A DNA stretch of 64,000 bases from positions 186,001 through 250,000 of the IMG/VR virus record IMGVR_UViG_3300022868_000009; one strand, 5' to 3'. Position 1 is the stretch's first letter. Each line of letters begins with the position of its first letter. The notes under the pieces were generated by a model. It was not told the origin of the DNA. It was given only the letters and a program-made list of their open reading frames with translations, and did no database searches. This stretch comes from a virus. Positions 5,023 to 59,922 of the stretch are shown one piece after another. A program made the position numbers and the translations under genes.

Positions 5023-5122
5023 CTATTATAAAATATCCATTGATAAACCGTTAACAATATAAGAAGTTTCTGAATTCAAATCTTTTAAGATTGATGTCTG
5101 TGAATTGTTCAAAGGTTTTCAT
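5023..5122 (-). pseudogene. Remnant of a small tagged gene (intact 23-codon mini-ORF 5051-5122)
   Basis: On the minus strand an ATG at 5122 opens MKTFEQFTDINLK, an almost textbook copy of the N-terminal tag described in the findings, and stops at 5051. Moving one base in frame after the AAAAG run allows reading to continue (DLNSETSYIVNGL) to a stop near 5023, which suggests a frameshifted, truncated gene. It lies 3 bases after the stop of the gene at 5126. It could instead be a genuine 23-residue peptide. Confidence 0.4.
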
Positions 5123-5125
5123 ATA

Positions 5126-5497
5126 TTATCCAGCTCTACCAGGTTTGTGAAGAGTAGTGAAACGTTTCCATTGACTTATGAAATCAGGTTTACTATTAGT
5201 TTTAGCTATTTCCGATTCTTTCTTGTTCTTTTCTCTTTCTCTTCTATTTCTCTCAATGGTTGATTTAGTATCAGATTTTTCTTTTTTATCAATTTTTTCA
5301 TCTTCTTCATCAAGTAAATCTATATCATCTTCATGAAGATCAACTACACCAGCATCACTAACTGTATCTTTACTAGGAGCACCAGTTTGACCTGCACCAA
5401 ACCAATTAGAATTACCATCTAATCTATTATTTGCAGTATTAGATTGATCTAATGGAACATTATGTTGCCATTCTAAATAAAATTTTAAATGTTTCAA
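5126..5497 (-). CDS. Hypothetical hydrophilic protein with N-terminal tag-like start
   Basis: This is a 123-residue protein starting MKHLKFYLEW, which fits the recurrent tag. It then has an Asn/Gly/Ser-rich linker, an acidic patch (HEDDIDLLDEEDEKID, about residues 55-70) and a Lys/Arg/Glu helix. No enzyme motif is visible. The composition (disordered, strongly charged) suits a small internal head or scaffold-like protein. It has a late-type box 18 nt upstream. Confidence 0.55.
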   Translation of the reverse strand: MKHLKFYLEWQHNVPLDQSNTANNRLDGNSNWFGAGQTGAPSKDTVSDAGVVDLHEDDIDLLDEEDEKIDKKEKSDTKSTIERNRREREKNKKESEIAKTNSKPDFISQWKRFTTLHKPGRAG

Positions 5498-5515
5498 AAC
5501 TATTTTAATTTTAAC

Positions 5516-5525
5516 TTATATATAA
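5516..5525 (-). promoter_or_regulatory. Late-type promoter box, palindromic
   Basis: TTATATATAA lies 18 nt upstream of the minus-strand start at 5497 and 35 nt upstream of the plus-strand start at 5561. Because it is its own reverse complement it could serve both genes. Confidence 0.45.
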
Positions 5526-5560
5526 AAAACACACAAAGGAAATTTAAAAATTATTAATTT

Positions 5561-5785
5561 ATGAGTATATTTATTGTTACTTATTTAAGTAAATCAAAAA
5601 AACCTCAAACGAAAAAATTTACAACATCAGCTAATTCTAGTGATGATGCGTCTTTTAATTTTAGAAAATCTGGAATTAAATATTTAAAAGTTTTCAACAT
5701 TAAAGAATCAACATCAAACTGTTTAGGGAATATTTTTCCTGATTTACAAAATCTTAAAGATAAATTAGAAAATGAAGAAAATTAA
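5561..5785 (+). CDS. Hypothetical small protein
   Basis: This is a 74-residue protein of mixed alpha/beta character (VTYLSKSKKPQTKKFTTSANSSDDASFNFRKSG split by a turn). It resembles the short 'IVTYLSKS...KKF' proteins common in large Bacteroidota phages but has no assigned function. It overlaps the next gene by 14 bases. Confidence 0.5.
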   Translation: MSIFIVTYLSKSKKPQTKKFTTSANSSDDASFNFRKSGIKYLKVFNIKESTSNCLGNIFPDLQNLKDKLENEEN

Positions 5786-6065
5786 AATCAATTTTACATT
5801 AATAATAGCAATATTAAACACATTTGCTTTTATAATTAATCCACTATCTATTATAGGTCTAGTAAATTTATTTTTTGCAATTTACTTCATAAGAAGCGTT
5901 TATAAACATTATAGGAAAAAATATGTGGAAAAAATTACTATTAAAAAGAAAAAAGAAGAAGAATTTGTGAAAAATTTTAGAAATTCAATAAAAAAACACA
6001 AAAAATTCGAAAAAGAATATGATTATATCAAAATTGATAAATCACCCGTTGAATTTAGAAATTAA
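5772..6065 (+). CDS. Two-helix membrane protein
   Basis: This 97-residue protein has two hydrophobic helices at about residues 6-24 and 27-43 separated by a Pro/Ser turn, followed by a very basic Lys-rich tail. It overlaps the gene before it and converges on the membrane protein at 6042 (24-base tail overlap). The size and topology would fit a holin or small membrane effector, but nothing specific supports either. Confidence 0.5.
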   Translation: MKKIKINFTLIIAILNTFAFIINPLSIIGLVNLFFAIYFIRSVYKHYRKKYVEKITIKKKKEEEFVKNFRNSIKKHKKFEKEYDYIKIDKSPVEFRN

Positions 6066-6968
6066 TTTAGTAACTAATTTACTTCCTGAATTTGTCAAAC
6101 TAAATAACTTATTATCATTTTGATCTATTAATCCACGGTGATATAATTCAATTATATTATTAACTAATTCTTTAAAATCTAATTTATGTAAATATAAATC
6201 ATTTTTTAAAAATGATATTTTTCTAGGTTTAATATATAGTTTATATAATATTGCAAATTCTAATTTTGTCACCTTATTTGAACTATACACAAATCTTTCA
6301 TATAGAAATTCTACATGAAATTCTTCATTATTTCTAAATATTTTCATTATTAAATTGTCGAATTTATTTTTAATCTTATTAAAAATATCAGTTCCATAAT
6401 ATTTTAAACCAACTAAAGTAGCACCAACTCCAGTTAAGGTTACAGATTTTAAAAATTCTACTAAATTTATATCATTTATATTTACATCTACTAAAACACT
6501 AATAAAAGGTACTAATAAAATAGAATAAATAAATAAATCTCTTATTCCTTTTATAACTTTACCAAAATTACTAGCTAATATAGAAAATAATTTTTTTACA
6601 TTTTTTATAACATCAATAATCATTTTTAACAATTCATCTAAGCCTTTTTCATTAATAATTAATTTTGCTTTATGAATAGAATTTTTATTTTCTTTTAATA
6701 AAATTGCTAAAGCTGTTATTGTTAATAAAATAATATCAAAAACTCTTAATTCATATCCTGTATTCTTAATAATACTCTCAATAAAAGGGTAAAAAGCAGT
6801 AACGGATGTACCAAAAGTGGCTATGAAATAATAATTTAAACCTATTTCTTTAATTACATTTTTTTGTTCTTTTTGCCAAGTTGAAATTTCTCTTTTTTCA
6901 AATAATTTATACAGAATCTCACTTTCATTATCTTCATTATAACTTTTATAAGAATTAATATGTTTCAT
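6042..6968 (-). CDS. Multi-pass membrane protein with tag-like N-terminus
   Basis: This is a 308-residue protein starting MKHINSYKSYNED, a tag-like start. Hydrophobic segments are visible at about residues 46-62, 75-90, 142-158 and 175-190. The last 90 residues are soluble and look like a winged helix (KLEFAILYKLY, FKELVNNIIELYHRGLIDQ, LFSLTNSGSKLV). No family recognised. A membrane protein with a cytoplasmic winged-helix tail could sense or respond at the envelope, but this is inference. Confidence 0.55.
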   Translation of the reverse strand: MKHINSYKSYNEDNESEILYKLFEKREISTWQKEQKNVIKEIGLNYYFIATFGTSVTAFYPFIESIIKNTGYELRVFDIILLTITALAILLKENKNSIHKAKLIINEKGLDELLKMIIDVIKNVKKLFSILASNFGKVIKGIRDLFIYSILLVPFISVLVDVNINDINLVEFLKSVTLTGVGATLVGLKYYGTDIFNKIKNKFDNLIMKIFRNNEEFHVEFLYERFVYSSNKVTKLEFAILYKLYIKPRKISFLKNDLYLHKLDFKELVNNIIELYHRGLIDQNDNKLFSLTNSGSKLVTKLISKFNG

Positions 6969-7076
6969 AATATCTATATATTATTTTTTTATTTATAAAA
7001 AATTTTCTATATTGAATTAGGAAAATAAAGAAAAAAGGAAAAATTCAACCTTATTTAAATTTAAAAATATAATTAG

Positions 7077-7931
7077 ATGGCAGAAAAATTCAATTTTACT
7101 AAAACATATGATAAAGATAATATTTTTAACACATTAAACAATTTAAAAATATATCAACAAGGCAACTATATTATCACCAATTATAAAGGTAGACCTATCA
7201 GTGAAACAAAGGTGACAAATAAATATCAAATTTTTGACTTTTCTTCATTTGCAAAAGAAATTGTTGGGGAAGTTGAAAATTATTTTACCCCAGAAACATA
7301 TAAACTAAGAATAAGAAAAGGTATTCAAGAACTCAGATTAATTGGCGAAGAAGTTTATATAAACGGTGAACAATATCATAAAATGTTAAATATTTTAAAC
7401 TCAACAGATAAATCAAGAGCATTACAATTAAATATTGGTCTTATTAGATTTATTTGTACAAATGGTGTAATTGCGGCAGTTGAAGACGAATATACAGGTT
7501 TTAAAAATAAACACTATAAATCATCATTGCCTGGTGCTGTTGAAGATTTTATGAAAAACCTTAACAAATTCAATATTATACTTGATAAACAATCAACTAT
7601 AATTGAAAGTTTATCAACAAATATAATTTCATTACAAGAATTAGCTGCAAAGTTAACTTTAGATGAACATGGTGTTATCAAAGAAAACAGACTTCTTAAA
7701 TTGAAATCTTTTACTAAAAAATTATTAACTTCAAAAACAGATAAATTAAATATTAAACTGTTAAACGAAGAACAAATTAAACTATTAAATTATCCTGAAA
7801 TATTTCAATCTACGAAAGTTGATATCGAAATACCAGCTTATCAAGCGTTTAATAACTATACAGAATTATTCAGAGAATATGATAGTTCAGTAATTAAAAG
7901 AGAAACAAATAGAATATTAGAATTAGTATAA
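7077..7931 (+). CDS. DUF932-like phage/plasmid protein
   Basis: This 284-residue protein resembles the DUF932 family of phage and plasmid proteins of unknown function. The best marker is LNIGLIRFICTNGVIA (about residues 118-133), matching the family's 'RxVCxNG' signature, preceded by a beta-rich domain and followed by long helices. It sits just before the sigma factor gene. DUF932 genes often lie in early or middle regions of large phages. The assignment rests on this motif and on length, so it is moderate. Confidence 0.55.
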   Translation: MAEKFNFTKTYDKDNIFNTLNNLKIYQQGNYIITNYKGRPISETKVTNKYQIFDFSSFAKEIVGEVENYFTPETYKLRIRKGIQELRLIGEEVYINGEQYHKMLNILNSTDKSRALQLNIGLIRFICTNGVIAAVEDEYTGFKNKHYKSSLPGAVEDFMKNLNKFNIILDKQSTIIESLSTNIISLQELAAKLTLDEHGVIKENRLLKLKSFTKKLLTSKTDKLNIKLLNEEQIKLLNYPEIFQSTKVDIEIPAYQAFNNYTELFREYDSSVIKRETNRILELV

Positions 7932-20274: not shown

Positions 20275-21558
20275 ATGGCAAAAAAACAAAATCCAAACAA
20301 TACTAAAAAAATTAGTAAAAAGAAAGTAGAAGATTTAAAGAAAAGATTGGAAAATGAACAAAAACCATTTATACATCAATACCCAATTAAAAATCTAAAT
20401 GAAAAGGAAGAAAATTATTTCAGACAAATGGCATCAAAAGAAGGTGTACTATTTATAATGTCTGAACCTGGTTTAGCTAAATCAGCTATGATGAGGAGTA
20501 TATCAAGTAAACTAAATCTACATTATATTGATCTTAGATTAAGTATGATGGATGAAACAGATGTTGGTCTTTTTCCAGACAAAGACGAAATAGAAGTTGA
20601 AATTAATGGTGTGGTTAGAACAGAAAAATTCCTATCTCACATTATACCAGAATGGGCTTGGTCTGCAAACAATCCACCAAATAATAAAATTGGAACATTA
20701 ATTCACTTTGAAGAATTAAATAGAGCACCATTATCAGTTAGAAATGCATCTTTGCAGATTCTTCTTGAAAGAACCATTGGATTTAGAGGGTTTAAATTCA
20801 ATGAAAATGTATTTATGGTATCAAGTGGTAATTTAGGTGATGAAGATGGTACAGATGTTGAAGAATTTGATGCTGCTCTTTATGGTAGATTAATTGTTCA
20901 AAGACATACATTAAGTTTACCAGATTGGAGAAAATATTATGGTGACGAACATGTACATTCAGCAATTGTAAGTTTTTTAAATGCCAATCCAGAATATTTC
21001 TATGTAAAAAGAAGTGAAAAAGATGAAAATGAAAAAGTATACGCATCACCAAGAAGTTGGACATTCTTAAGTAAAATGATTGATGCTAACTATGGTAAAG
21101 AAGCATCACCACAACTATTCTTAGATTTTGTGGCTAGAGTCGGCCATGGTTATGTAGGCGCAGCTTGCCAACCATTTTTAAGATATTGTAGAGATATTGA
21201 TAAAATTACTATTCAAGATATTTTAGATAAATATAGTCAATATCAAGATGAAGGAAAGGTATTTATTAGAGATAAGAGATCTGAATTACTTCAAAAGTTA
21301 AGAAAAGTTAAAGTTGCAAAACTTAAACCAATTCAAATTGAAAATGCTAAATTATTTTTATTAGATATTAGAGCCGATGAAGTTGCAGCATTTATTATAG
21401 ATATGTTAGATAATGACCTTATATATCATAAAGACCCAACATTAGATGATCAAGATATTCTAGATTTTTTAAGAGACCCAAGATTTGAAAAATTTAATGA
21501 TTTAATATACGAAAATGTAGATGATGATGATGAATTTTTGAATATAAACAAAGATTAA
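20275..21558 (+). CDS. MoxR/CobS-like AAA+ ATPase
   Basis: This is a 427-residue protein with Walker A SEPGLAKS (63-70, the AKS form seen in RavA/MoxR) and Walker B HFEELNRAP (about 144-152, the ELNRA variant typical of MoxR). A sensor-1 region follows (FMVSSGNLG), then DAALYGRLIVQRHTLSLP, corresponding to the 'DRF' arginine-finger region. MoxR ATPases act as chaperones or insertases with VWA partners; CobS, in the same clade, drives cobalt insertion into the corrin ring with CobT. Partners here are the proteins at 16942 and 15897. Confidence 0.85.
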   Translation: MAKKQNPNNTKKISKKKVEDLKKRLENEQKPFIHQYPIKNLNEKEENYFRQMASKEGVLFIMSEPGLAKSAMMRSISSKLNLHYIDLRLSMMDETDVGLFPDKDEIEVEINGVVRTEKFLSHIIPEWAWSANNPPNNKIGTLIHFEELNRAPLSVRNASLQILLERTIGFRGFKFNENVFMVSSGNLGDEDGTDVEEFDAALYGRLIVQRHTLSLPDWRKYYGDEHVHSAIVSFLNANPEYFYVKRSEKDENEKVYASPRSWTFLSKMIDANYGKEASPQLFLDFVARVGHGYVGAACQPFLRYCRDIDKITIQDILDKYSQYQDEGKVFIRDKRSELLQKLRKVKVAKLKPIQIENAKLFLLDIRADEVAAFIIDMLDNDLIYHKDPTLDDQDILDFLRDPRFEKFNDLIYENVDDDDEFLNINKD

Positions 21559-23671: not shown

Positions 23672-24121
23672 TTAATTGTATTTCGTTCTTCGATTTACTT
23701 TTTGAGTTATTTCAAAAAGTAAATCAAGAATATAATTGTCACATTCTTCATTTTTCGTTTCTTCTATTGGAACTGGATTTTCGAAATTTGGATTTTTTTC
23801 CGCTCTTTTTTGATCATCTCTAAACCATTGATCTTCATTAATATAATATTCAAATCTCAAACCATTATCTAAAATAATAATTATCATATCATTTTTACTT
23901 TCACTAGAATCAGATGAATTACTAAGTCTAACATCTTTAATTTTACCACCAGGTAAAGTTTGTAAAACTTTCCCAATATATTCACTAAAATCTAGATCAG
24001 ATCTATTATTTCTTTGAAATTCTGATTTCCAGTCATCAAATTCATGTCTATCATCTTGATTTAAAGAACCATAAATATCTTTAAGTTTATTAAAATTCTC
24101 GAATTTTTTTAAGTATTTCAT
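23672..24121 (-). CDS. Tagged hypothetical protein
   Basis: This 149-residue acidic protein starts MKYLKKFENFNKLKD, one of the clearest tag copies, followed by charged helices, a beta segment (DMIIIILDNGLRFEYYI) and a C-terminal helix. Its 5' region, from promoter box through leader to the first codons, is nearly the same as that of the gene at 24436. No enzyme motif. Confidence 0.6.
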   Translation of the reverse strand: MKYLKKFENFNKLKDIYGSLNQDDRHEFDDWKSEFQRNNRSDLDFSEYIGKVLQTLPGGKIKDVRLSNSSDSSESKNDMIIIILDNGLRFEYYINEDQWFRDDQKRAEKNPNFENPVPIEETKNEECDNYILDLLFEITQKVNRRTKYN

Positions 24122-24166
24122 AATCGTTTTTTTTTTTTGTGGTTATTGATATTATATATATTATTA
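24110..24166 (-). repeat. Duplicated promoter-leader-tag cassette, copy 1
   Basis: Minus strand: ATATAATATCAATAACC, an A-run, GATT, then ATGAAATACTTAA and an AAATTC codon pair. Copy 2 lies at 24424-24466 with only a few changes and a shorter A-run. Confidence 0.65.
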
Positions 24167-24436
24167 AGTTGAAATATTTTTAGAGAAATTTTTTACAAAT
24201 GGTATATAAATTTCTCTATAAGGTGACTCATTTTTAATTTGAGGGTGTTTATTAACTAGTTTTTTTAACCTATTTAATTGTTCATCTATATCATCTATTT
24301 TAGTAATATCATCTAACATTTCTTCTAAATCTTTTATTTCTAATTTATAAAGACCAAGTTGATCGCTTACTGATTTCCAATCTTTATCATTATTGAATGT
24401 ATCATTCCATTCGTTGAATTTTCTTAAGTATTTCAT
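24164..24436 (-). CDS. Tagged hypothetical protein
   Basis: This 90-residue helical protein starts MKYLRKFNEWNDTF, a tag copy, then an acidic helical body (LEEMLDDITKIDDIDEQLNRLKKLV). It is small enough to be an internal head protein. The next gene in line starts 43 bases after its stop and carries a sister copy of its 5' region. Confidence 0.6.
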   Translation of the reverse strand: MKYLRKFNEWNDTFNNDKDWKSVSDQLGLYKLEIKDLEEMLDDITKIDDIDEQLNRLKKLVNKHPQIKNESPYREIYIPFVKNFSKNIST

Positions 24437-42158: not shown

Positions 42159-42170
42159 AATCAGGATTTT
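42145..42170. terminator. Bidirectional terminator holding both stop codons
   Basis: AAAATCCTGATT, 2-base loop, AATCAGGATTTT: a 12-bp perfect palindrome with A/T tracts on both sides. The stop of the plus gene (42156-42158) and of the minus gene (42161) are inside it. Confidence 0.85.
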
Positions 42171-43621
42171 CTATTTTGTAATTCCGTTAATTTAAAATAA
42201 AAATCTCGAGCTATTTTCTTTAAGTAATATGTACCCATTCCTTGCATGCCTGTTTTCTCGTTATCTGGATCTGGTACTCTTTTACCATTTAAGTAGTTTA
42301 AACCACTAACATTTGTAATAAATTTATGACCCCCTGAATTTGATTGAATAATATCCCATGCCGTAACATACATATCATTTAATATCTTTTTATCATTTTC
42401 ACTTAATTTTATAAAAGGAACAGTCATCACAGCATCTAACACATTTTCAGATTGCTGATCTAAACCAACAATTTGATCTTTAAATAAAGAAACTAAATCT
42501 TTAAATCTAAAACCAAATTCATTTGAAATATCTTTTGGAGCTTTATTTCTTGTACCTTTAGCAGCTCTGACCATATCTTGTTCAGATATTCTCTTAATAT
42601 TTTTAACAGTTATTTTAACGTTTTGTAAATTAGTTTTGAAATTATTTAATACATCTTGTGCAATATCGCCCAAGTTAATATGTTCAAATTTTGGATCTTT
42701 CTTTTTAAAAGGATTTGTTGAAACTTGAACTAATCCCATTGGCCAAGCCATAATAAAAAAATTAGCATCTGGATATAATTTAAATGAAGCATATCTATCA
42801 TATGAACCAGTATCAAACATTCTAGGACCACCATATTGCATCATTATATCATTCTTAACAACTAATTTTTTAAAATTTTTAAGATTGTCAAAATATGTAT
42901 TTGCATGTTTTTCAATTGATTCAGCAGGATCTAAACCTAAATCTTTAGCTAATTTCTTAATTTCTAAAAACATACTAACTAAACTAGGTTTTGAATTTTC
43001 AACTAAACCTACTAAAAAACCAGGTTTATTTTTATAAGCCAATAATAGTTTATTTACAACAAATCCTAATTTCATTCTATTTGATTTAGTTGATATATCT
43101 TTATTGGTTTTATAGAAAAATTGAATTACATCAGAAGGAGTTATATCTTGACTTGCATAATCTGCACTATCAACAGTATCAATCATATTAACATCTTCTG
43201 CTGAAAATATATCATTAGGTGAAATTTCACCGGAAATAGTACCAGCATTTGATTTAGCTTTCTTAAAATGTGCAGACATAGTTTCTACGCCTATTTGCAT
43301 ATCATGGTGGTCTGTATGAATAACAAATTCTGTTTTACCGTGAGCAAAATCTACTAAAACAGCTAATGTACCGGGTTGTGGTTTATCTAAATGATATTCC
43401 ATACCACCATATTGAATAGTATGATATCTTACTGTTTTAATACCATATTGTTTCAAATATTCTCTCATAGCAATAGCTGATGTAACACCATCTAAATCTA
43501 CATGAAAATATATTTCAGCTTCATCAAAAGTTTTAGATATTTTTTTAATATCACGTATGCCAGATTCATTTAATTTCAGAAACTGATTATAACTTTCTAA
43601 TAAACGCATGAAATTAAACAT
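42161..43621 (-). CDS. DHH-family phosphoesterase with N-terminal tag
   Basis: This is a 486-residue protein (482 if started at the second ATG, 43609). The DHH signature is seen at HVDLDGVTSA (40-49), VDFAHG (90-95), HTDHHDM (102-108) and DSADY. This group includes RecJ, nanoRNases and c-di-AMP phosphodiesterases, all using Mn ions. The first residues (MRLLESYNQFLKLNES) match the recurrent tag followed by L-x-E. The N-terminal ATG overlaps the previous stop by 8 bases. Substrate unknown: short RNA, DNA or cyclic nucleotides are all possible. Confidence 0.75.
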   Translation of the reverse strand: MFNFMRLLESYNQFLKLNESGIRDIKKISKTFDEAEIYFHVDLDGVTSAIAMREYLKQYGIKTVRYHTIQYGGMEYHLDKPQPGTLAVLVDFAHGKTEFVIHTDHHDMQIGVETMSAHFKKAKSNAGTISGEISPNDIFSAEDVNMIDTVDSADYASQDITPSDVIQFFYKTNKDISTKSNRMKLGFVVNKLLLAYKNKPGFLVGLVENSKPSLVSMFLEIKKLAKDLGLDPAESIEKHANTYFDNLKNFKKLVVKNDIMMQYGGPRMFDTGSYDRYASFKLYPDANFFIMAWPMGLVQVSTNPFKKKDPKFEHINLGDIAQDVLNNFKTNLQNVKITVKNIKRISEQDMVRAAKGTRNKAPKDISNEFGFRFKDLVSLFKDQIVGLDQQSENVLDAVMTVPFIKLSENDKKILNDMYVTAWDIIQSNSGGHKFITNVSGLNYLNGKRVPDPDNEKTGMQGMGTYYLKKIARDFYFKLTELQNRKS

Positions 43622-44171
43622 TTTTTAACAGATTCATTAAATCATCATTTAATATCTGTAACACTTTTTTACCATTTAGTTCAATTTGTGGGACATTCTT
43701 AATTATAGAAAAAACATCATTGCCCTCAACAACTATTTCACTAAATAATTTATCAAGTTGTGGATTTCTTCTATAATAAGAAACTAAATTATCAACAAAC
43801 TCTTTTAATTTTAATTCATGATTTTCATTATATTTCAAAACTAATAAAGATTTATCAGTTTGCTCTATTATCATGAAATGTAAATCATCTTTAGAATGAT
43901 TATTTGATTCTAAAAGAGAATAAGCATCAGAAGGTTTATAATTATCTAAAAATTTAGCGACTTTGCCATTAAGTTTAAACCTAGGTTTTTTCCTACTAAC
44001 ATTTGGATCTCTGTTATCTCTTCTTGGAGGTTTAGATAACTCTTGAGCCATTGCAGCCAAATTAGCCTTCTTAATCGGAATTTCCTTTGGAATTTCAGGA
44101 ACAGAACTAGTAATAGTTTTTGAACTACCACCACCTGTTGATGCAAAATCACTATATTTTTTTAAGCCCAT
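43614..44171 (-). CDS. Tag-like hypothetical protein
   Basis: This 185-residue protein starts MGLKKYSDFAS, a variant of the tag, followed by a Ser/Thr/Gly/Pro linker, a very basic patch (KPPRRDNRDPNVSRKKPRFK, about 45-65) and a compact alpha/beta domain. Eight-base overlap with the DHH gene. Basic linkers suit DNA contact inside a head, but this is inference. Confidence 0.55.
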   Translation of the reverse strand: MGLKKYSDFASTGGGSSKTITSSVPEIPKEIPIKKANLAAMAQELSKPPRRDNRDPNVSRKKPRFKLNGKVAKFLDNYKPSDAYSLLESNNHSKDDLHFMIIEQTDKSLLVLKYNENHELKLKEFVDNLVSYYRRNPQLDKLFSEIVVEGNDVFSIIKNVPQIELNGKKVLQILNDDLMNLLKNV

Positions 44172-44181: not shown

Positions 44182-44703
44182 TTAAATTTCTTGACTACCT
44201 TGTTGTAACTGTTGACCTTGTTGTTGTAATTTCTGGCCTTGTTGTTGTAATTGCTGCCCTTGTGTTTGTAGATTTTGACCTTGTGCTTGTAAACCATCAT
44301 CCTGTGCAGGAATATCCTGTGCAGTTTGTTGAGCTTGAGTTTCATCTGGAACATCTTGTAATGGTTGAACTTGTTGCGTTTGAGCTTGTTGCATTTGAGG
44401 TTGAACTTGTGCACCTTTTGCATAATTAGAACCCATTGCCATTGTAACAGGCAAATTCTCAATGTTCATATATGATGAAGCGATATAGTTAACAATCATT
44501 TCAGCCATTTGTTCTGCACCATAAAGATCTTTAACATCTCTACCTGTCTCATCTTTAACTTTTTTAGTAAAAGCGTTAATTAATGATTTAGGTACATCAA
44601 CGTTTGGTAATACTCTATAAACATCATCAATAGCAAATACAGTTTCTTGAACTTTATTTCCTTTTGAATTTTTAAAATCATTTAGATTTGTTAAATGTTT
44701 CAT
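44182..44703 (-). CDS. Tagged protein with Gln-rich heptad repeat
   Basis: This 173-residue protein starts MKHLTNLNDFKNSKG (tag), has a helical domain to about residue 95, and ends with a Gln-rich tail. The last 45 residues repeat GQ(x)LQ(Q/T)Q seven residues apart (GQNLQTQ, GQQLQQQ, GQKLQQQ, GQQLQQG), probably a long helix or coiled coil. Such tails are common in structural proteins. Function unknown. Confidence 0.6.
   Translation of the reverse strand: MKHLTNLNDFKNSKGNKVQETVFAIDDVYRVLPNVDVPKSLINAFTKKVKDETGRDVKDLYGAEQMAEMIVNYIASSYMNIENLPVTMAMGSNYAKGAQVQPQMQQAQTQQVQPLQDVPDETQAQQTAQDIPAQDDGLQAQGQNLQTQGQQLQQQGQKLQQQGQQLQQGSQEI
44186..44292 (-). repeat. Coding tandem repeat (21-nt unit) for Gln heptads
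   Basis: About five copies of a 21-base unit on the minus strand (GGTCAACAATTACAACAACA type) with scattered changes; it encodes the GQxLQQQ repeat. Prone to length change by slippage. Confidence 0.6.
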
Positions 44704-45586: not shown

Positions 45587-47539
45587 TTATAAACTATTTT
45601 TTGACGAATCTATTGGTGGTGTACCATCTCTAGAAGTTTTATTACTTGGATTAAACACCGCACTCATAGAACTATTTGGTATTGAATTATCACCAGTAAT
45701 TTTATTTTCACCTAGTACCCAATAACCTTTATTCCAAATTCCATTATACCAATTACCAAGATAAAATTTTCCATTAATAAAAGTTCCATTATACCAATCA
45801 CCAGACCAAAAATATCCATCATTAAATGTACCACCACTCCATCTACTAAAAAATATATTAGTTTTTGTTGATGAACCATTTTTCCAATCAGCATATATTA
45901 TATCGCTATTTTCTGCTATACCATTTTCCCAAATTGTATTTGTTGTTCCTGTCATGCCTAAAATCGGATCATAAATATTCTCTGTTTCAGAATTGAAAAA
46001 TTTACCATTTTTCCATGTACCATGACTCCATGTTGAATTATTAAACTCGCCTTGATACCAAGTACCAGAACTCCATGTAGAATTTATCATTTTTCCATTA
46101 TACCATGAACCATCTCTCCAACCACCATTATTAAAAGTTCCACCATACCACACACCGTCATACCACGTACCAGTTTCAAATATTCCATTATTCCAGATTC
46201 CATTATTCCATGTAGATCCACTACCTTTAAAAGCACCATTATTAAAAATTCCATCATACCATGTAACATAATTAATTATATTACCATTATTAAAAGTTCC
46301 ATCATACCAGTATATTTTATAATAATATATCAATAATTTTAAATCTCCACTCATATCACCACCATTAAATGTACCACCTGACCACATACAATCTATATTA
46401 TCTGCATTAAAATTGCCATTATTAAAAACACCATTATACCATTGTGAATCTACAAATGTTCCATCATTAAAAGTACCACCAGTCCAATTTGATCTATAAA
46501 AATACCCATCATTAAAAATACCATTTAACCAAGTTTTTGAACTATTAAAATAACCAAATATCCCATTATTCCAAATACCATCATACCAAACACTTGGTCC
46601 AAATTTTTGACTTTCTTCACTTAATAAAGAATAATCTTCACCTATATCATATTCCCATGTACCATAACTCCAAATACAATTATTTTCCACCGTACAATTT
46701 TTAAAATATCCACCAGTAATTATGTAATCACTTATCACACATTCTTCAAAATATCCACCACTTATAATATGATTAGAGCCATTAAAAACTCCATTATAAT
46801 AAATACCAGATTCTATATTAGTTATATAAATATTTGAACTAATTGAATTTTCACAACCAATATAACTATAACCATTATTATTATTATTTTTACTTATAGA
46901 TAAAGATAATATATCATCTTCAGTATTAACTAATGTAGGATACATATAATCATATTTTAATTCAAATGTTGTACCAGTAGAATTACAAACAAAAAAGATA
47001 CCTTGATTTACATTAACATCACCAATCAAATCACATTCTTTTATAATAGCTGCATCTATATAACCATCATTTATTGTGATATTTTCACATTTAACCAAAC
47101 TAATATAATGATTTGTTAAATTAACATTTGAAGGTAAATCTTCATATTTTTTATTAATAATAATTAGATTTCTATTACTATCTACATATATTACTTTATA
47201 TCCATTATCTTTAACATAAGGAAAATTTAAATCATATCTTCTTTCATAAAATGTATCAATATTACCAGTTGCATCATCAAAACTTGAAATATAAACTATA
47301 TCTCCTATTTTAATATTAGAATCTAACATTGTATAAAACCCAAGATATTCATTATATCTTTCTGGTATGTTTACAATCTTAACAGAATTTCTTGTTTCAG
47401 GATATTTTGCAAGTTCTCTTTTTCTAACAGGATCAATAGGATCTGATAAATTAACATTAATACCCAATTCTAATGATAGACCCTTTATAATTCCATTTGA
47501 ATTTAATGTGTCAACAGGTATGTTTGTTATTCTAGCCAT
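45587..47539 (-). CDS. WxxG-repeat protein, probable tail fibre or spike
   Basis: This 650-residue protein is started at 47539 (MARITNIPVDTLN); the longer frame from 47599 would place the promoter inside the gene. N-terminal about 200 residues are globular. Residues about 230-590 are built of repeats such as WYNGTFNNG, WSGGTFNDG, WYDGVWYGGTFNNGGW: an aromatic every five residues followed by two variable residues and Gly. This should fold as a beta solenoid with an aromatic stack. The C-terminus is Ser/Asn-rich. A receptor-binding role is inferred from repeat type and the neighbouring genes. Confidence 0.6.
   Translation of the reverse strand: MARITNIPVDTLNSNGIIKGLSLELGINVNLSDPIDPVRKRELAKYPETRNSVKIVNIPERYNEYLGFYTMLDSNIKIGDIVYISSFDDATGNIDTFYERRYDLNFPYVKDNGYKVIYVDSNRNLIIINKKYEDLPSNVNLTNHYISLVKCENITINDGYIDAAIIKECDLIGDVNVNQGIFFVCNSTGTTFELKYDYMYPTLVNTEDDILSLSISKNNNNNGYSYIGCENSISSNIYITNIESGIYYNGVFNGSNHIISGGYFEECVISDYIITGGYFKNCTVENNCIWSYGTWEYDIGEDYSLLSEESQKFGPSVWYDGIWNNGIFGYFNSSKTWLNGIFNDGYFYRSNWTGGTFNDGTFVDSQWYNGVFNNGNFNADNIDCMWSGGTFNGGDMSGDLKLLIYYYKIYWYDGTFNNGNIINYVTWYDGIFNNGAFKGSGSTWNNGIWNNGIFETGTWYDGVWYGGTFNNGGWRDGSWYNGKMINSTWSSGTWYQGEFNNSTWSHGTWKNGKFFNSETENIYDPILGMTGTTNTIWENGIAENSDIIYADWKNGSSTKTNIFFSRWSGGTFNDGYFWSGDWYNGTFINGKFYLGNWYNGIWNKGYWVLGENKITGDNSIPNSSMSAVFNPSNKTSRDGTPPIDSSKNSL
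45640..46800 (-). repeat. Tandem WxxG repeat region
   Basis: Coding for 70 or more (W/F)xxG units (about five residues, 15 bases, each) in the protein at 45587. On the plus strand the unit shows as repeated ACCATTATACCA/CCATCATACCA and similar. Confidence 0.7.
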
Positions 47540-47558
47540 TAATAATCTTAATTTAGTT

Positions 47559-47568
47559 TTATATATAA
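47559..47568 (-). promoter_or_regulatory. Late-type promoter box
   Basis: TTATATATAA ending 19 nt before the chosen start at 47539. Supports this start over the upstream ATG. Confidence 0.55.
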
Positions 47569-47862
47569 AATATTGATTAGTGATAAAAAAATTTTTCAAA
47601 AATTTCCTTGAATTCTCTAAGATGTTGATTTTATTGTATTTGAATTTTCAACAAATCCTTTAAATATAATAGTTTTAGAAATTTTAAAAAAGTGAAAAAT
47701 TTTTTAAATATATAAATAGTGTAGTATTTAAACAGAATTTAGATTGAAAAGTATTAAAAAAATTAAAAACTTTTATTTGAATTCGTTTTATATGATTTAA
47801 GATAAATTTTAAAACGCTTTAAAGTTTTTCAGTTGAACTAAACAACATTAAAAATTAGTATT
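47569..47862 (+). promoter_or_regulatory. Long A/T-rich intergenic leader before the SSB gene
   Basis: No gene is seen in these nearly 300 bases. It has several -10-like boxes, such as TATAAT (47665-47670, after a TTCAAC element) and AAATATATAAATAG (near 47707). Two or more promoters for the SSB unit are likely. Confidence 0.4.
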
Positions 47863-48935: not shown

Positions 48936-48965
48936 AAAAGCCTCGCAATAATGTGAGGCTTTTTT
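48936..48965 (+). terminator. Intrinsic terminator after the SSB gene
   Basis: 11-bp stem AAAAGCCTCGC / GTGAGGCTTTT (one G-T pair), 6-base loop, T tail. It leads directly into the next promoter box. Confidence 0.8.
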
Positions 48966-48991: not shown

Positions 48992-49966
48992 ATGAAAATA
49001 TATAAATTTAATTCTTTTATATTTGAAAAAAGTTCTCTAACTTCAATTGGAATACCAAATGAAGTTCTTAAACAAATTCAAATAGATTACGAATTACCAC
49101 ATAATATAAAATGGGAAGAACTTACATTTTCAAACACCATCAAATCATCACTAGAAAATGATGACAAAAATCTATATATTGAAATAAATAAAGAAGGCAC
49201 TAAAGTAAACGTAATAACATCAATAAGAAAAAATAAAAAGAAAATCTACATATTAGACGAATATAAATATAATTTCGGATGGGAAAAATCAGAAAGAATT
49301 GATATAACATTCGCACCAATTGTACAAAAAATGTCATTTAAAAGTATATATTATCACTGTGAATCTAAAAACTTTAAACTCACATCCAAAAAAGAAAGAT
49401 CACTTGAAAATATAAATGTCCAATATGAAAATTTTAATACACAATTTAAAAAAGACTTTACTAACAAATTCATAAGTATAATTAAAAAAGATAAATATAA
49501 TCTACTAGACAATACTATAAAAGAAAACGGTCTAACAACATTTGATGAATATTTATATGATTTTGAATCACAATGTTCAGAAGAATTAAAAAGATATTTA
49601 ACAATTAAAGAACTTATTTCTAGATATGGTAAAGATAAAATATTTAGATCATTTATGTATTTCATTAAAACAAATAACTTAAAATTATTTGAATCAAATA
49701 CTTCATTAAAACAAACAATAAGTTTATTCGTTGACGATTATTGGTATGCAATGGACGAATTAGAAGGAGTATTACATGACTTAGGATATAAAAGAATGAG
49801 TGATAGTGGTAAAGATGTTCTTTTTGTAGAAAAAGAAGGCGAAACTAGATTATATTGGTACGGAAAAGCTTTTGAAATTAAAAATGAACCACATTATAAA
49901 ATGCCAGAAGACTGGGCAACTTTTGTTAAAGAAATAACACAAAATTTTGAAGATATAAAAATATGA
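48992..49966 (+). CDS. Tagged hypothetical protein
   Basis: This 324-residue protein is started at 48992 (MKIYKFNSFIFEKSS); a longer frame from 48953 would begin inside the terminator. The start fits the tag and is followed by I-x-E (IFE). The body has alternating beta and helical parts; the last 70 residues (LFVDDYWYAMDELEGVLHDLG...) form a separate domain. No enzyme motif seen. ATGA overlap with the next gene. Confidence 0.6.
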   Translation: MKIYKFNSFIFEKSSLTSIGIPNEVLKQIQIDYELPHNIKWEELTFSNTIKSSLENDDKNLYIEINKEGTKVNVITSIRKNKKKIYILDEYKYNFGWEKSERIDITFAPIVQKMSFKSIYYHCESKNFKLTSKKERSLENINVQYENFNTQFKKDFTNKFISIIKKDKYNLLDNTIKENGLTTFDEYLYDFESQCSEELKRYLTIKELISRYGKDKIFRSFMYFIKTNNLKLFESNTSLKQTISLFVDDYWYAMDELEGVLHDLGYKRMSDSGKDVLFVEKEGETRLYWYGKAFEIKNEPHYKMPEDWATFVKEITQNFEDIKI

Positions 49967-50175
49967 AACATATAAAAACTTTTGAACAACATGCTGCAGA
50001 TTATTATGAAGGAGAAACTTCATCTTCACCTTCAGGACCAGTTAAAATGAACTGTCCTAATTGTGGTAATGAAATGAATGTAATGTTCCATGAAATTAGT
50101 CCAAAACCAATCACTTGTGAATTTTGTGGTGATAAAATAGAATATCCATATGGTCAAAGTTGGCGTTGGGCATAA
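49963..50175 (+). CDS. Tagged zinc-ribbon protein
   Basis: This 70-residue protein starts MKHIKTFEQHAADYYEG, a strong tag copy. A Ser/Pro linker follows, then a CPNCGNEM...CEFCGDK zinc ribbon (about residues 31-58). The small size and metal-binding fold suggest a nucleic-acid or protein contact. Coupled to the gene before by ATGA. Confidence 0.6.
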   Translation: MKHIKTFEQHAADYYEGETSSSPSGPVKMNCPNCGNEMNVMFHEISPKPITCEFCGDKIEYPYGQSWRWA

Positions 50176-50176: not shown

Positions 50177-50662
50177 ATGAAACATTTAAAAACATATAAT
50201 GAAAAATTTTCTTTTAGGAAAGATGATCAAAGAGAAATTAGAAAATGGCTTTTTAATTATATATGTAATGAATATTTTGGCGAAAAACAAGAATCATTAA
50301 AAAAATATGATAGAAAAATTCGTTTTTCACCAGGTTCTAATGGTAACGATATATATAAAATATATAAAATATTTAATGATAATAGATATAGATTTGACAT
50401 TATATGTGAACTAACAGACGAAGAAATTAAAGATGATATCTATCTCAGTGCAAGTATTGTAAAATTCAAAGATATGTATGATATCTCACTTAGACAGACA
50501 TACAATGAAACAGAAAAACAAATAGAAATTAAAGGTATTGCTTTTGAAGTAAGAGCAATATTAAAAAAGGGAATGGACAAATCAAAATTTAAATCTGAAT
50601 TATCTGATAAATTAAGAGAAACTGTTGAACATGAATTCAGCATTATGACTCATTATTTATGA
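50177..50662 (+). CDS. Tagged hypothetical protein
   Basis: This 161-residue protein is started at 50177 (MKHLKTYNEKFSFRK), one base after the preceding stop and with the tag; an upstream ATG at 50150 would overlap the zinc-ribbon gene. The rest is alpha/beta with basic N-terminal helix. Unrecognised; ATGA overlap with the next gene. Confidence 0.6.
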   Translation: MKHLKTYNEKFSFRKDDQREIRKWLFNYICNEYFGEKQESLKKYDRKIRFSPGSNGNDIYKIYKIFNDNRYRFDIICELTDEEIKDDIYLSASIVKFKDMYDISLRQTYNETEKQIEIKGIAFEVRAILKKGMDKSKFKSELSDKLRETVEHEFSIMTHYL

Positions 50663-52912: not shown

Positions 52913-53566
52913 TTATCTACTTAATAAACCTATTTTAGAATAAACATTTTTCCAATCATCCTCATTGTTTATTATATATTCAGGTTCTCTGGAATCTAAA
53001 ATAGTTTCAGCATTTTCAATTGTTACATAATCAACGGCTTTTATTTTAATTCCATCATTAATTCTAACTCTATAAGTTTTAAATGTTTCACTCAAAATTT
53101 GTGCTATATATAAAGGAAAAGTACCATCATCAATATACATAACAGCAGAAAGTTTTGCATTTGGCATCTCAACGTACAACTTATTCTCTGTATCTATCAA
53201 ATGATATTTGGATAAGCTTTCTTTAATTCCGTTATGTTTAATAACATCACTATTCTTAACATAATAATAAGAATCTGTAGAAGTTTCTTTAAAAACTAAT
53301 GATGCATCAATTTTTTTACAGAATTGATTTAACATTTTTCTTTGAAAATTGCCTTTATCTAATAAATTACTATTAATTAATCCACTAAACTTATATTTAT
53401 CTTCTAATATAACAACAATTTTTCTATTTGCATTATCATAATACAAACAATCTATATCCAACATATAATTAGATCTAGATAAACTTCTATGTCCTTCAGA
53501 AAAGACATTACTTTTACCCCATTTTCTTTTATAATCTTCAAATATGTTTTTAATTCTTTGTATCAT
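52913..53566 (-). CDS. PD-(D/E)XK-like protein
   Basis: This is a 217-residue protein with a candidate nuclease core at residues 35-59: MLDIDCLYYDNANRKIVVILEDKY, with Asp37 or Asp39 and Glu55-Asp56-Lys57 (ExK) in the spacing of PD-(D/E)XK enzymes. The N-terminal RSLSRSNY lies just before it. The rest is alpha/beta (VDYVTIENAETIL). It overlaps the CCA enzyme gene by 17 bases. Activity is inferred from the motif only. Confidence 0.45.
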   Translation of the reverse strand: MIQRIKNIFEDYKRKWGKSNVFSEGHRSLSRSNYMLDIDCLYYDNANRKIVVILEDKYKFSGLINSNLLDKGNFQRKMLNQFCKKIDASLVFKETSTDSYYYVKNSDVIKHNGIKESLSKYHLIDTENKLYVEMPNAKLSAVMYIDDGTFPLYIAQILSETFKTYRVRINDGIKIKAVDYVTIENAETILDSREPEYIINNEDDWKNVYSKIGLLSR

Positions 53567-54857
53567 TACTCATATATTCATTTTTAAATCTTTCGTATTC
53601 TATTCTTCTCATTTCTTCACCTAAAGCCTTTCCATGAAATCCCTTTTGCATTAACTCTTGTGAATTTTTTAAAAAACCATCACTACAATATTTAATGAAA
53701 GCTTCAGTTATATTTGAATATAATCCCTGAGACTTAGTATATAATCTTAATATATTATCATCAATACCAAATCTAGTCTTATTTTTAGCTAACTGATAAA
53801 TATTTGTCATCCACATATCACCTGTAGATTCTTCTATTATCTTTTTCTCATAATTAAATAGAAAAATAATATAATCAATCAAATTATTTTGCAACTTACA
53901 ATCAATTAATTTGTTGGTTAAATTCGAATCATCTGAACTTGGAGTCATCAAAATAGGTAAAATTATCCTATTATCGAAAAGTGAAAAATTCACCCAAGGA
54001 ACCTCTATTTTAATTCCAGGGAAAATCTCATCAAACATATCAAATTCATCAAGTAATCTTAAATATTTAATAAACATAGACATATCATTTGCATCTCTCG
54101 CATGACCTAACATTTTATTCCATTCACCATTTTTAGTGTCAAATATTCTTTCAAATGAAACATCATCTTTCTCAGATATTCCATGTAATCTATGATCCAT
54201 AGTTAATGCATTCTTTACATTTTCACTTATTTTACCATTAGTTCTTGCACAAAATCTAAACAATCTTAATATTCTCAATCTATCTTCATTAAACCTTTCA
54301 TAAGGTTCACCAACAGTTTTAATAAGTCCTTTCTTTAAATCTTCAATACCACCAACATAATCAATGATTTTCTTACTACCAAGATCATAAAACATTGCAT
54401 TAATTGTTAAATCTCTTCTTAAAACATCATCTTGTATTGTAACATTTGAACCAATTTCTACTTTTTGATCATCACCTTTAACATCTCTACCTTTAGCAAT
54501 ATCTTTTCTATAGGTTGCTAATTCATGACCTAATGGTTCTAAATCTGTATAAATTCTTAATACTCCAAAATTTTGTCCTTGCTCTTCTTCAGAAACATAA
54601 CCACCATTCCAATCTTCTAATATCTCTTTAGATTCATCTGGCATTGCATCTGTAACTAAATCAAAATCTTTAGGTTTTTTTCCTTGTAAATAATCTCTAG
54701 GAGCGCCACCTACAACATATAATTCCTTACCATACTTTTTAAATCTTTCATATATTTCTACAATATCTTCGGGTATGAACATATCTTTAGCTTTAACAGT
54801 TTTCTTTTGCATTTTATTTTCATTTAAAAATTCAGAATATTTATACAATTTATTCAT
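53550..54857 (-). CDS. CCA-adding enzyme / poly(A) polymerase head-domain protein, tagged
   Basis: This 435-residue protein has the class II nucleotidyltransferase head: VVGGAPRDYLQGKKPKDFDLVTD (GGxxRD at 50-55, DFD at 64-66), RRDLTINAMFYD and GxxxRFxEDxxRxLRLxRF near 190-205. It adds or repairs the 3'-CCA of tRNA, or tails RNA. The C-terminal half is helical as in bacterial CCA enzymes. The first 15 residues (MNKLYKYSEFLNENK) fit the recurrent tag and are followed by LNE, so the protein may be packaged into the head. Confidence 0.8.
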   Translation of the reverse strand: MNKLYKYSEFLNENKMQKKTVKAKDMFIPEDIVEIYERFKKYGKELYVVGGAPRDYLQGKKPKDFDLVTDAMPDESKEILEDWNGGYVSEEEQGQNFGVLRIYTDLEPLGHELATYRKDIAKGRDVKGDDQKVEIGSNVTIQDDVLRRDLTINAMFYDLGSKKIIDYVGGIEDLKKGLIKTVGEPYERFNEDRLRILRLFRFCARTNGKISENVKNALTMDHRLHGISEKDDVSFERIFDTKNGEWNKMLGHARDANDMSMFIKYLRLLDEFDMFDEIFPGIKIEVPWVNFSLFDNRIILPILMTPSSDDSNLTNKLIDCKLQNNLIDYIIFLFNYEKKIIEESTGDMWMTNIYQLAKNKTRFGIDDNILRLYTKSQGLYSNITEAFIKYCSDGFLKNSQELMQKGFHGKALGEEMRRIEYERFKNEYMSNDTKN

Positions 54858-55874: not shown

Positions 55875-56108
55875 ATGAAATATTTAAAGACATACGAAGA
55901 ATTAACCGATTCACAAAAAGAATCTGAATATAATAAAAAATTAGAAGAACTAGAAGATAAAAAAGAAAGACTTCAGAAAAAACTCCAATATTCAGAAGAT
56001 GTAAGAGATCCAGAAAAAACAGAACAAATAAGAAAAGAAAAGAAAGAAGAAATTGAAAAGAATAAAAAGAAAAAGAGTTCTGAAGATCAAAACTCTTTTG
56101 TATCCTAA
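55875..56108 (+). CDS. Tagged coiled-coil protein
   Basis: This 77-residue protein starts MKYLKTYEELTDSQKE (tag) and is otherwise a Lys/Glu-rich coiled coil with a Ser-rich end. Small, helical and highly charged, like the T4 internal proteins. It overlaps the tail of the YkuK gene by 4 bases. Confidence 0.6.
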   Translation: MKYLKTYEELTDSQKESEYNKKLEELEDKKERLQKKLQYSEDVRDPEKTEQIRKEKKEEIEKNKKKKSSEDQNSFVS

Positions 56109-57962: not shown

Positions 57963-58018
57963 AAATTAATTTTTTTGGTTAAACTTCTTTTATCTTTACA
58001 TATACTTAAACAATAAAA

Positions 58019-58047
58019 AAAAGTTGTTAAAAAAATTAACAACTTTT
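58019..58047 (-). terminator. Terminator between the UVR-motif and S1 genes
   Basis: AAAAGTTGTTAA / TTAACAACTTTT perfect 12-bp stem with a 5-base A loop and T tract on the minus strand. Confidence 0.75.
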
Positions 58048-58068
58048 CTTAATTATATTAAAAATGTT

Positions 58069-58464
58069 TCAATAACTAATTTCTAGTTTTTGTAAATAAT
58101 TATTTAATACTGATGCCCTTTCATAATCTTCAATTTCTAAATAATATTTCATTTTTTTGATAAGATCCTGTTCGCTGTCATTATATGAAAAAACGTTATT
58201 TTTTGTAATGTCTACAACATATTTCTTTCTTTTTTTGTTGTAAGTAACATCATAGTCTTTTAATTTTTGTCTGACATCTTCTATCGTATAATTATAGTCA
58301 GAATTTTCATCAAGTTTATTTAAACTCTCCGATTCTATCAACATTAACATAAACTCTTCTGAGAATGCCTTTTTCTCACATAAAAAATCACACAGAATTT
58401 CAGGATCTGTGCCAATAATCTTTAATAGTGAGTTGAAATTTTCCTTAAATCTTCTTGTAGCCAT
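58069..58464 (-). CDS. UVR-motif protein
   Basis: This 131-residue protein ends in LIKKMKYYLEIEDYERASVLNNYLQKLE, a UVR/McsA-like helical hairpin that contacts UvrA/UvrC or Clp partners in known proteins. The N-terminal 90 residues are unassigned. The motif alone does not fix function. Confidence 0.6.
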   Translation of the reverse strand: MATRRFKENFNSLLKIIGTDPEILCDFLCEKKAFSEEFMLMLIESESLNKLDENSDYNYTIEDVRQKLKDYDVTYNKKRKKYVVDITKNNVFSYNDSEQDLIKKMKYYLEIEDYERASVLNNYLQKLEISY

Positions 58465-58511
58465 GATAATATGGTTATTTTCTGCCCAATAAGAAACTTA
58501 TTAGGCAAATA

Positions 58512-58808
58512 TTAATCATCAAATTGTGTGTACTCATTAGGTTGATTCAATAAACCTAAACTTTTGTAAATACACACTTTATTATTATCAATATAATATT
58601 TATCATAAGACGTAAAATTACATAAACTTATAAAAGATTCAAACCAAACCTCTTTTCCTGTAATAATATCATTTAATTCAATTGTTATCATCTGATTTTC
58701 TTCAATTAAATTAATATCAATGTCAAGATCTTCAAAAAAATTATATAAATTTGATTTCAATGAAACATACTGTGTTTCATTTATAAATTGATTAAATTTT
58801 GTTTTCAT
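58512..58808 (-). CDS. Tagged hypothetical protein
   Basis: This 98-residue protein starts MKTKFNQFINETQYV, a tag copy very close to the T4 internal-protein leader (MKTYQEFIAEA), with I-x-E (INE) at 9-11. The body is acidic alpha/beta. One base of overlap with the gene before. Confidence 0.6.
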   Translation of the reverse strand: MKTKFNQFINETQYVSLKSNLYNFFEDLDIDINLIEENQMITIELNDIITGKEVWFESFISLCNFTSYDKYYIDNNKVCIYKSLGLLNQPNEYTQFDD

Positions 58809-59500
58809 TATCTAAATGTTTTATAAAATTTACCTAAATTGTTCTTCTTATATATTAATTCTTTTTCTCTTCTATCTAATTCTTCTAAAAATTCTTCATC
58901 ATTAGAAACACCAAAATCTTTATAATGTTTCTCTCTAGAAGGCGCGGATGTCGTATAACTACCGTAAGTCGCAATTGAGTCTGGTTTTGTAGTTTCAGGT
59001 AAATTTCTTTTTATAATTAACCCAGCCATTCTATTATCAATTTGATTAATTATTGGATCTTTTAAATGTTTAACAATTTTCTTATTATTTTTAGTTTCTG
59101 GATAAAATGCAATAAATTCATCAAAAACGCCAATATCAAAAAGTCTACTTTTATTACTAGATTTAGTACTCGTTATTCCTTCACTATATTCATAATCTGC
59201 AATTAAAGGAAATATATCATTAATATCTTTTGATTTTGAATTCATAAAATCATATAGAGGTTGTATGGCTTTTTTATAAGCTTTTTGATTTTCTTCTTCT
59301 ATACCAACTTTATTTCTTTCATACCAATTCGTACTCAAAGATCTCCATTTATCCTTGATCTTATCATATCCTTGATAAGTACTATAATCTTTTTTAAGTT
59401 TTTGAAGACTTTTTAATACAACATCATCATCAACAATATTTTCAATTTCTTCCAATCTAATTTCAAGATCTTCAAGATCATTACTACAATATATTTTCAT
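58808..59500 (-). CDS. Hypothetical protein
   Basis: This 230-residue protein has an acidic N-terminal coiled coil (about 10-45), then mixed structure; residues about 190-215 are Ser/Lys/Glu-rich. No tag and no family. Coupled by one-base overlaps on both sides. Confidence 0.5.
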   Translation of the reverse strand: MKIYCSNDLEDLEIRLEEIENIVDDDVVLKSLQKLKKDYSTYQGYDKIKDKWRSLSTNWYERNKVGIEEENQKAYKKAIQPLYDFMNSKSKDINDIFPLIADYEYSEGITSTKSSNKSRLFDIGVFDEFIAFYPETKNNKKIVKHLKDPIINQIDNRMAGLIIKRNLPETTKPDSIATYGSYTTSAPSREKHYKDFGVSNDEEFLEELDRREKELIYKKNNLGKFYKTFR

Positions 59501-59922
59501 TAAAATAAACCTAATTTATTTGATTCAGTTGAATATTTGTATTGTGGATATTTATCCAAAAACTCATCTAATTCAAAATTGTTTTTTGTTTTAGTTTTTT
59601 GTAAAATTTCATTAAGACTATCTTCAACACTAACACCTAAAACTTCGAAATCTTTGTAGATACCAGTTGATAGTTTATTCTTATATTCAGAATTAGGATT
59701 ATAAGATATATAACCTTTATTTTCAGAAGGTTTAAAATTCTTTTTATCATTAACAAAATCTAACCATTCTATATTAAATTTTTCATCACCATTATAAATA
59801 TCACAAAAAATAGTGTAAATAATTTTCAATTTATCAGGTTTAATATTATATAATGTTAAATCGTTCCCTGTATAATCAAGATTAATGTTTTCAAACATTT
59901 TATATAAAACTAAATATTTCAT
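59500..59922 (-). CDS. Tag-like hypothetical protein
   Basis: This 140-residue protein starts MKYLVLYKMFENINLD. Hydrophobic spacing is tag-like, less basic than others. The rest is acidic/aromatic with a C-terminal ELDEFLDKYPQYK helix. It leads the three-gene group 59922-58512, with AATATATAA boxes just upstream. Confidence 0.5.
   Translation of the reverse strand: MKYLVLYKMFENINLDYTGNDLTLYNIKPDKLKIIYTIFCDIYNGDEKFNIEWLDFVNDKKNFKPSENKGYISYNPNSEYKNKLSTGIYKDFEVLGVSVEDSLNEILQKTKTKNNFELDEFLDKYPQYKYSTESNKLGLF

Follow-up and report, generated by a model that had tools for sequence, protein, structure and literature searches.

The window analysed here is a 64,000-nucleotide stretch of DNA, bases 186001–250000 of the virus record IMGVR_UViG_3300022868_000009 from IMG/VR, and makes up about one fifth of the genome in that 344,634-base jumbo-phage record, which has a GC content of 25 %. 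A first-pass annotation of the window had listed 15 open reading frames (ORFs) and one mini-ORF whose products start with the same amphipathic pattern, and had proposed that this N-terminal peptide is a packaging tag like the capsid-targeting sequence (CTS) of phage T4. All of these ORFs exist, and 12 of the 15 are a close match to the pattern (5126, which has a TTG start, 6042, 23672, 24164, 44182, 48992, 49963, 50177, 53550, 55875, 58512 and 59500), the other three being weaker. Minus-strand genes had been listed by their low coordinate, and the tag therefore lies at the high end of the gene. The (I/L)xE said to follow the pattern in several proteins is present, in a subset only.

Two fixed rules were used to count tags, a strict form, M[KR]-x-[LIV]-x-x-[FYW] at the start, and a contiguous T4 form, M..[FYWL]xx[FYW][ILVMF]xE, with expected counts taken from two controls, shuffled N-termini and windows placed at internal Met residues. 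They replaced a position-specific profile trained by expectation maximisation, which was dropped when training pulled it towards generic starts with MK (mixture weight 0.76). The strict form begins 42 of the 494 genes of the record, where 0.30 (shuffled) or 0.34 (internal Met) would be expected, and the T4 form 25 of the 494 (expected 2.2 and 6.2). Aromatic or hydrophobic residues three apart are found within the first ~10–20 residues, as in a CTS. The N-terminal tag is real, far from chance and genome-wide in the record.

By capsid and protease sequence, the closest matches of the record are a 735-kb phage (LR756501; 64 % and 56 % identity) and phages of 634–642 kb (LR745206, LR756502 and LR756504); next come the Lak phages, whose capsid proteins are 28–29 % identical to that of the record. 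When part of the window was compared with named phages by megablast, no match was obtained. Al-Shayeb et al. 2020 placed their largest genomes and Lak in a 'Mahaphage' clade with predicted Bacteroidetes hosts (PMC7162821), and the record is a relative of the Mahaphages of 634–735 kb. The comparison covered the whole record, the 735-kb phage, parts of the 634-kb, Lak-A1 and 462-kb phages, and four viral contigs of 110–159 kb (G001–G004); the controls were 121Q, T4, cyanophage S-SM2, Tenacibaculum phage PTm1 and part of Chryseobacterium phage MA9V-2.

Within the window, tags of the exact T4-CTS form with a candidate cut begin the CCA-adding (tRNA nucleotidyltransferase) gene 53550–54857 (MNKLYKYSEFLNE, cut before N; 54819–54857, minus strand), in which the match to the PHROG tRNA nucleotidyltransferase begins at residue 44, the ORF 58512–58808 (MKTKFNQFINE, cut before T; 58776–58808, minus strand) and the ORF 48992–49966 (MKIYKFNSFIFE, cut before K; 48992–49027, plus strand), which starts at an internal ATG of a GTG ORF at 48953. 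The DHH-family gene 42161–43609 is off the pattern as a full ORF, but fits it from an internal ATG at 43609 (MRLLESYNQFLKLNES), giving the tag MRLLESYNQFLKLNE with a candidate cut before S (43565–43609, minus strand). The 634-kb phage has an orthologue starting MISKYNQFINEE, and in the longer ORF the DHH domain, which scores below the Pfam cut-off, begins at residue 37.

The strict form is carried on the minus strand by ORFs 23672–24121 (MKYLKKFENF, 24092–24121), 24164–24436 (MKYLRKFNEW, 24407–24436), 5126–5497 (MKHLKFYLEW, 5468–5497) and 6042–6968 (MKHINSYKSYNE, 6933–6968; the 735-kb orthologue starts MKKYNEYLLEE), and on the plus strand by the small CxxC-containing ORF 49963–50175 (MKHIKTFEQH, 49963–49992), by ORF 50177–50662 (MKHLKTYNEKF, 50177–50209), the start of which lies within ORF 50150, and by ORF 55875–56108 (MKYLKTYEEL, 55875–55904). 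The conserved gene 44182–44703 has a tag and candidate site, MKHLTNLNDFKNSKGNKVQE followed by T (44644–44703, minus strand); its protein starts MKHLTNLNDF..VQET, and its orthologues MVNNIFSFDDF..IQES, MNKNLYEFGEF..LTEN and MKHIRTYENY..IKES. ORF 59500–59922 is tagged at both ends, with MKYLVLYKMFEN at the N-terminus (59887–59922, minus strand) and KLGLF-stop at the C-terminus (59503–59517, minus strand). MKTKFNQFINET is among the tags of the window. The start of ORF 24504–24908 (MKKFTEEYSKMIKE; 24867–24908, minus strand) is weak by itself, but orthologues are tagged (MIKKYLQFIKEA in the 634-kb phage, and MPLTFQKFFEE). ORF 43614–44171 (MGLKKYSDF, 44145–44171, minus strand), flanked by two tagged genes, has a weak pattern judged from its sequence alone. 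The 23-aa mini-ORF at 5051–5122 (minus strand) has the tag-like sequence MKTFEQFTDINLKRFEFRNFLYC (MKTFEQFTDINLKRF..) and may be a remnant. The core replication and nucleotide genes of the window (RNR, UvsX, DnaB-type helicase, SSB and PhoH) carry no tag.

Recurrence in related phages and diversity of the cargo

Related huge phages also carry the tag, again on diverse cargoes. The T4 form was counted in 58 of 1016 genes of the 735-kb phage (4–5 expected), 21 of 566 in the 634-kb part (1.3–2.3), 8 of 229 in G001 (about 1), 18 of 184 in G003 (0.8), 13 of 180 in G004 (0.9) and 6 of 228 in the 462-kb part (0.7). G002 has just 4 of 212 (1.2–2.0 expected), yet its strict form reaches 14 against 0.1–0.3. 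Among the other phages, T4 itself has 4 of 262 (0.5 expected), including the internal proteins IPII and IPIII, S-SM2 4 of 246 (0.6), the MA9V-2 part 4 of 195 (0.4) and the Lak-A1 part 5 of 417 (0.9–1.5). The pattern is less common in control N-termini, and no excess was seen in 121Q (1 of 594; 1.7 expected) or PTm1 (1 of 308; 0.7 expected). A late-promoter-like sequence, AATATATA, was found within 40 bases upstream of 25 of 71 tagged genes versus 54 of 403 genes (p=4e-5), but this was not taken as evidence because the signal is missing from the −40 to −8 stretch alone.

That the tagged proteins have little else in common was borne out, as the 71 from the record fall into 64 sequence clusters once the first 20 residues are removed. 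Domains identified in the record are NUDIX, DeoC aldolase and RNase H (from residue 22), with DHH and NT5C-like domains below the cut-off, and those in the relatives are DeoC, methyltransferase, GNAT, CoaE (from residue 14), Sa_NUDIX (from 16) and ART-PolyVal (from 13), together with a tagged DUF2201 metallopeptidase-VWA protein in G001. Pfam assigned a family to just one of ten further tagged proteins. In the clearest cases a complete enzyme domain begins 12–20 residues in, and the tag is therefore an add-on.

Orthologues are both tagged more often than expected. With the first 25 residues masked, five genomes gave 670 reciprocal best pairs, of which 18 have a tag on both members, where 4.35 would be expected. 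The pattern is kept in such orthologues although its letters differ. One set of orthologues starts MIKKFSNLIES, MKVIKFSDYLKES, MKYIRTYESYS and MKILKIEEFLIKE, with a common (I/L)(L/I)(V/L)(I/V)VDVQ strand after the tag; we read these proteins as isochorismatase-like, though the two members submitted to Pfam matched no family.

The protease–scaffold fusion and candidate cleavage sites

A cognate gp21-type (S77) prohead protease is encoded in the same phage, outside the window, as part of an 811-aa protein at 5467–7902 of the record. Residues 4–200 match PHROG_207 'head maturation protease' (E=1.3e-29), the match to Peptidase_S77 has E=5.7e-6, and the motifs GEFDHP and VSSRAAG are kept across 24 aligned sequences. 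A gp23-like capsid gene (PF07068, E=4.7e-25) follows directly in the reading direction.

Much of the remainder of the fusion is taken up by a helical scaffold in which [YF]SEY[ILV]AE units are repeated in tandem. These units are similar to the T4 CTS core YQEFIAE and occur in 3–12 copies in all 50 of the protease ORFs collected. A low-confidence AlphaFold model, with a mean pLDDT of 53 that is not good enough for searching by fold, places a long helix at the repeats. Such an array was not found in Lak, PTm1 or MA9V-2, and that of the 462-kb phage is degenerate; among the phages sampled, a small sample, those carrying the strict array are the tag-rich ones.

The motif [IL]NE lies at residues 8–28 in 17 % of tagged versus 5 % of untagged proteins (p=5e-11; tags chosen regardless of E), and the enrichment is gone at residues 51–71. 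In T4-form tags, N is enriched 6.4-fold at P2, and P1' is N, S or A. The motif [ST]xE is only weakly enriched (18 % of tagged versus 13 % of untagged). Just after the protease domain of the fusion there is an invariant N172-E173-S174 (consensus LNE↓S, the arrow marking the candidate cut). Close to their N-termini, homologues of the capsid protein carry LNE↓N, MNE↓N or VNE↓N. The candidate tag sites, [IL]NE↓N/S/A, resemble these protease and capsid sites.

Proposed capsid targeting and its alternatives

The tag is likely to be a T4-type CTS used on an expanded scale. From the tag, its enrichment, the diversity of its cargo, the protease, the scaffold repeats and the site consensus, we infer a scheme of docking, cleavage, packaging and ejection with the DNA. 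Tagged proteins would be recruited into the prohead core during head assembly by the amphipathic, probably helical peptide with its aromatic residues three apart, which probably docks by imitating the [YF]SEY[ILV]AE repeat of the scaffold. The gp21-type protease would cut after [IL]xE, mostly at [IL]NE↓N/S/A, in site-bearing tags and release the mature cargo, and tags without a site would provide targeting without processing. The packaged enzymes would stay in the head and presumably be ejected with the DNA. The T4-like packaging role proposed at first pass draws support from the recurrence on diverse cargoes in relatives and from the outcome of two of the refuting conditions named with it: the genome does have a prohead-type protease (S77/PHROG_207), and control N-termini show the pattern less often.

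Several points weigh against this. The Pfam S77 score (23.5 bits) is below the cut-off of 27 bits, and a sequence search of solved structures with an alignment of protease–scaffold proteins returned coiled-coil or helical-bundle matches only and no gp21 structure. Lak-A1 and PTm1 have the protease and few or no tags. Orthologue pairs in which only one member is tagged outnumber those with both tagged (72 versus 18); some of this discordance arises because the rules are strict, and some is real. Many tags in the record (MKYLKTYEN type) have no immediate (I/L)xE, and cleavage cannot therefore be claimed for every tag. However, T4 IPI (MKTFKEFTSTTTPVSTITEA, MKTFKEF; MKTFKEFTSTTT..ITEA) also escapes the rule because its nearest (I/L)xE lies downstream, about 10 residues after MKTFKEF, and so a genuine tag need not have a site next to it. 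Finally, the tag rules were drawn up after examples had been seen, and starts are crude calls from ORFs called with a simple script.

An unlikely alternative is that the tag addresses some other phage-specific place, such as a replication compartment, a membrane or a phage protease or chaperone, and that its likeness to a CTS is convergent. The many tags lacking a cut site, the existence of a second, C-terminal tag (see below) and the fact that presence in virions is deduced from sequence would fit such an address, whereas the enrichment of [IL]NE just past the tag, the similar motif repeated in the scaffold and the selection of T4 internal proteins by the same rule argue against it. A compositional or translational effect, with AT-rich genomes tending to begin genes MKK, MKY or MIK and to encode short amphipathic helices, is highly improbable. 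MK starts are indeed common in this 25 % GC genome and drew the trained profile away, but shuffling the same residues leaves about 0.3 strict forms in place of 42, the similarly AT-rich Lak-A1 (26 % GC) has 1 and 121Q 0, and the codons of the tag vary; the shuffled, internal-Met and control-phage counts largely refute this explanation. Hardest of all to credit is one expanded family with a common N-terminal domain, for although tandem clusters include some of the small tagged genes and 31 of 105 tagged proteins of the 735-kb phage group together, perhaps via a common DPYGEE motif, the 64 clusters and the unrelated enzyme folds refute it for most of the set.

Capsid targeting by a CTS-like tag has its closest parallel in T4, where ten residues suffice, with residues 4 and 7 serving targeting and 8 and 10 processing, and where T-even phages carry further internal proteins with CTS-like sequences (PMC9026906). 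As with the CTS of IPI, IPII and IPIII (MKTYQEFIAEA) and gp21, the peptide occupies the N-terminal 10–20 residues, has the pair of aromatics three apart and, in a subset of the tags, has the processing residues, with (I/L)xE after the aromatics (downstream in IPI), and the phage has a gp21-type protease and a gp23-type capsid. Unlike T4, which has four rule matches, the record has ~25 exact and ~70 broad tags and its 735-kb relative 58 exact ones; the cargo of the record consists of enzymes of many folds, the protease and scaffold form one protein with CTS-like repeats, and the site is mostly [IL]NE. The packaged T4 ADP-ribosyltransferase (ART) Alt is paralleled by the ART-PolyVal protein of G001, with MKIKFTEFITE↓D before the domain, but the ART families differ and the tagged ART is in G001, not in the window. 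T4 gp61.1 (NC_000866 18966–19130, 54 aa, hypothetical) has a CTS-like start, MKTFKEFIKEDM, and is possibly an overlooked packaged protein.

In phiKZ and SPN3US, the DNA is ejected together with numerous proteins of the head, some of which the prohead protease processes after a glutamate (PMC5694885). Several SPN3US propeptides exceed 100 residues, the motif is AxE, and of 8 processed proteins one alone has a propeptide of CTS length; no short tag common to many unrelated proteins has been described in these phages. Long propeptides of the phiKZ type (about 80–130 residues, AxE/SxE) were not seen here in the clearest cases, where domains begin so close to the start. PTm1 (a fused 'prohead core scaffolding protein and protease') and MA9V-2 (an S77 fusion) resemble the record in having a fused protease–scaffold followed by the capsid gene, and differ in the lack of the repeat array and, for PTm1, of a tag excess. 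The four CTS-like starts of MA9V-2, a cultured phage, read MKNFFSFINEA, MKTFTYFINEA, MKTFFTFVNES and MKNFFQFINES; the one reading MKTFTYFINEA belongs to a small gene (OR513085 166687–166935) immediately ahead of the protease gene, and the other three are elsewhere. We came across no cultured phage within the tag-rich clade itself.

In the largest known phages, most genes lack an assigned role. Our data suggest that these phages, like the virus studied here, fill their heads with a large and varied cargo for delivery along with the DNA. If the 10-residue tag marks virion cargo, dozens of proteins per genome could be sorted as co-delivered with the DNA from sequence alone, and candidate roles for them as counter-defence, nucleotide or host-takeover enzymes would become testable. 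Imitation of a scaffold repeat would give a concrete model for the binding of a CTS to the core, and natural cargo loading may be much broader than the T4 tag now used for packing foreign proteins. In the open-access literature, which is weak evidence on this point, we found no report of such tag numbers or enzyme diversity, of a scaffold with CTS-like repeats or of C-terminal tags, nor any account of tags like these from Mahaphages or from further phages of Bacteroidetes.

Peptides at the C-terminus

A second motif, [KR][LIMF]G[LIMFV][LIMFYV]-stop, ends 51 of the 519 ORFs of the record, mostly as K[LM]GLL, against 0.7 expected, and about 40 % of these 51 proteins are also N-tagged. Selection acts on the peptide, because the codons vary synonymously. 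An origin at the DNA level, as a promoter or ribosome site belonging to the gene that follows, was rejected on the same ground and because the distance to the next gene on that strand varies from an overlap to 11 kb.

Other phages have other peptides. In the 735-kb phage, DPYGEE[ND]W occurs in ~105 copies in ~90 proteins, 38 of the copies being C-terminal and 22 within the first 40 residues; it is also present in G003, and absent from the record, the 634-kb part, G001 and G002. KYNL ends 21 of 213 proteins of G002, nearly all with tag-like starts, IEW[LVF] ends 14 in G003, and DFGFFDN (DFG..DN type) ends 6 in the 462-kb part, all N-tagged. These peptides are commoner than expected on N-tagged proteins (odds ratios 3.3 to 14, p=0.005 to 2e-9). 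No C-terminal tag is evident in the 634-kb part or G004. One possibility is that the C-terminal peptide is a second loading signal. More tentatively, and with some doubt on our part, a two-ended code might operate, in which a scaffold-mimicking N-terminal tag and a lineage-specific C-terminal or internal peptide load dozens of effectors and may favour a phage's own cargo over that of a co-infecting relative.

Between 299879 and 343000 of the record lie clusters encoding proteins of ~100 residues, many C-terminally tagged and some with both tags, which look like a diversified cargo array. Proteins encoded at 20942–21253, 97218–97820 and 336852–337331 of the record end in NKMGLY or KKMGLY; the first two contain leucine-rich repeats of the LPELPKGL type, and the last two start MMRYLKTYSEN or MKYLKTYSEN. 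Elsewhere, positions 45587–47599 of the window encode a 670-aa protein made up of short repeats of the WYNGTFNNG type.

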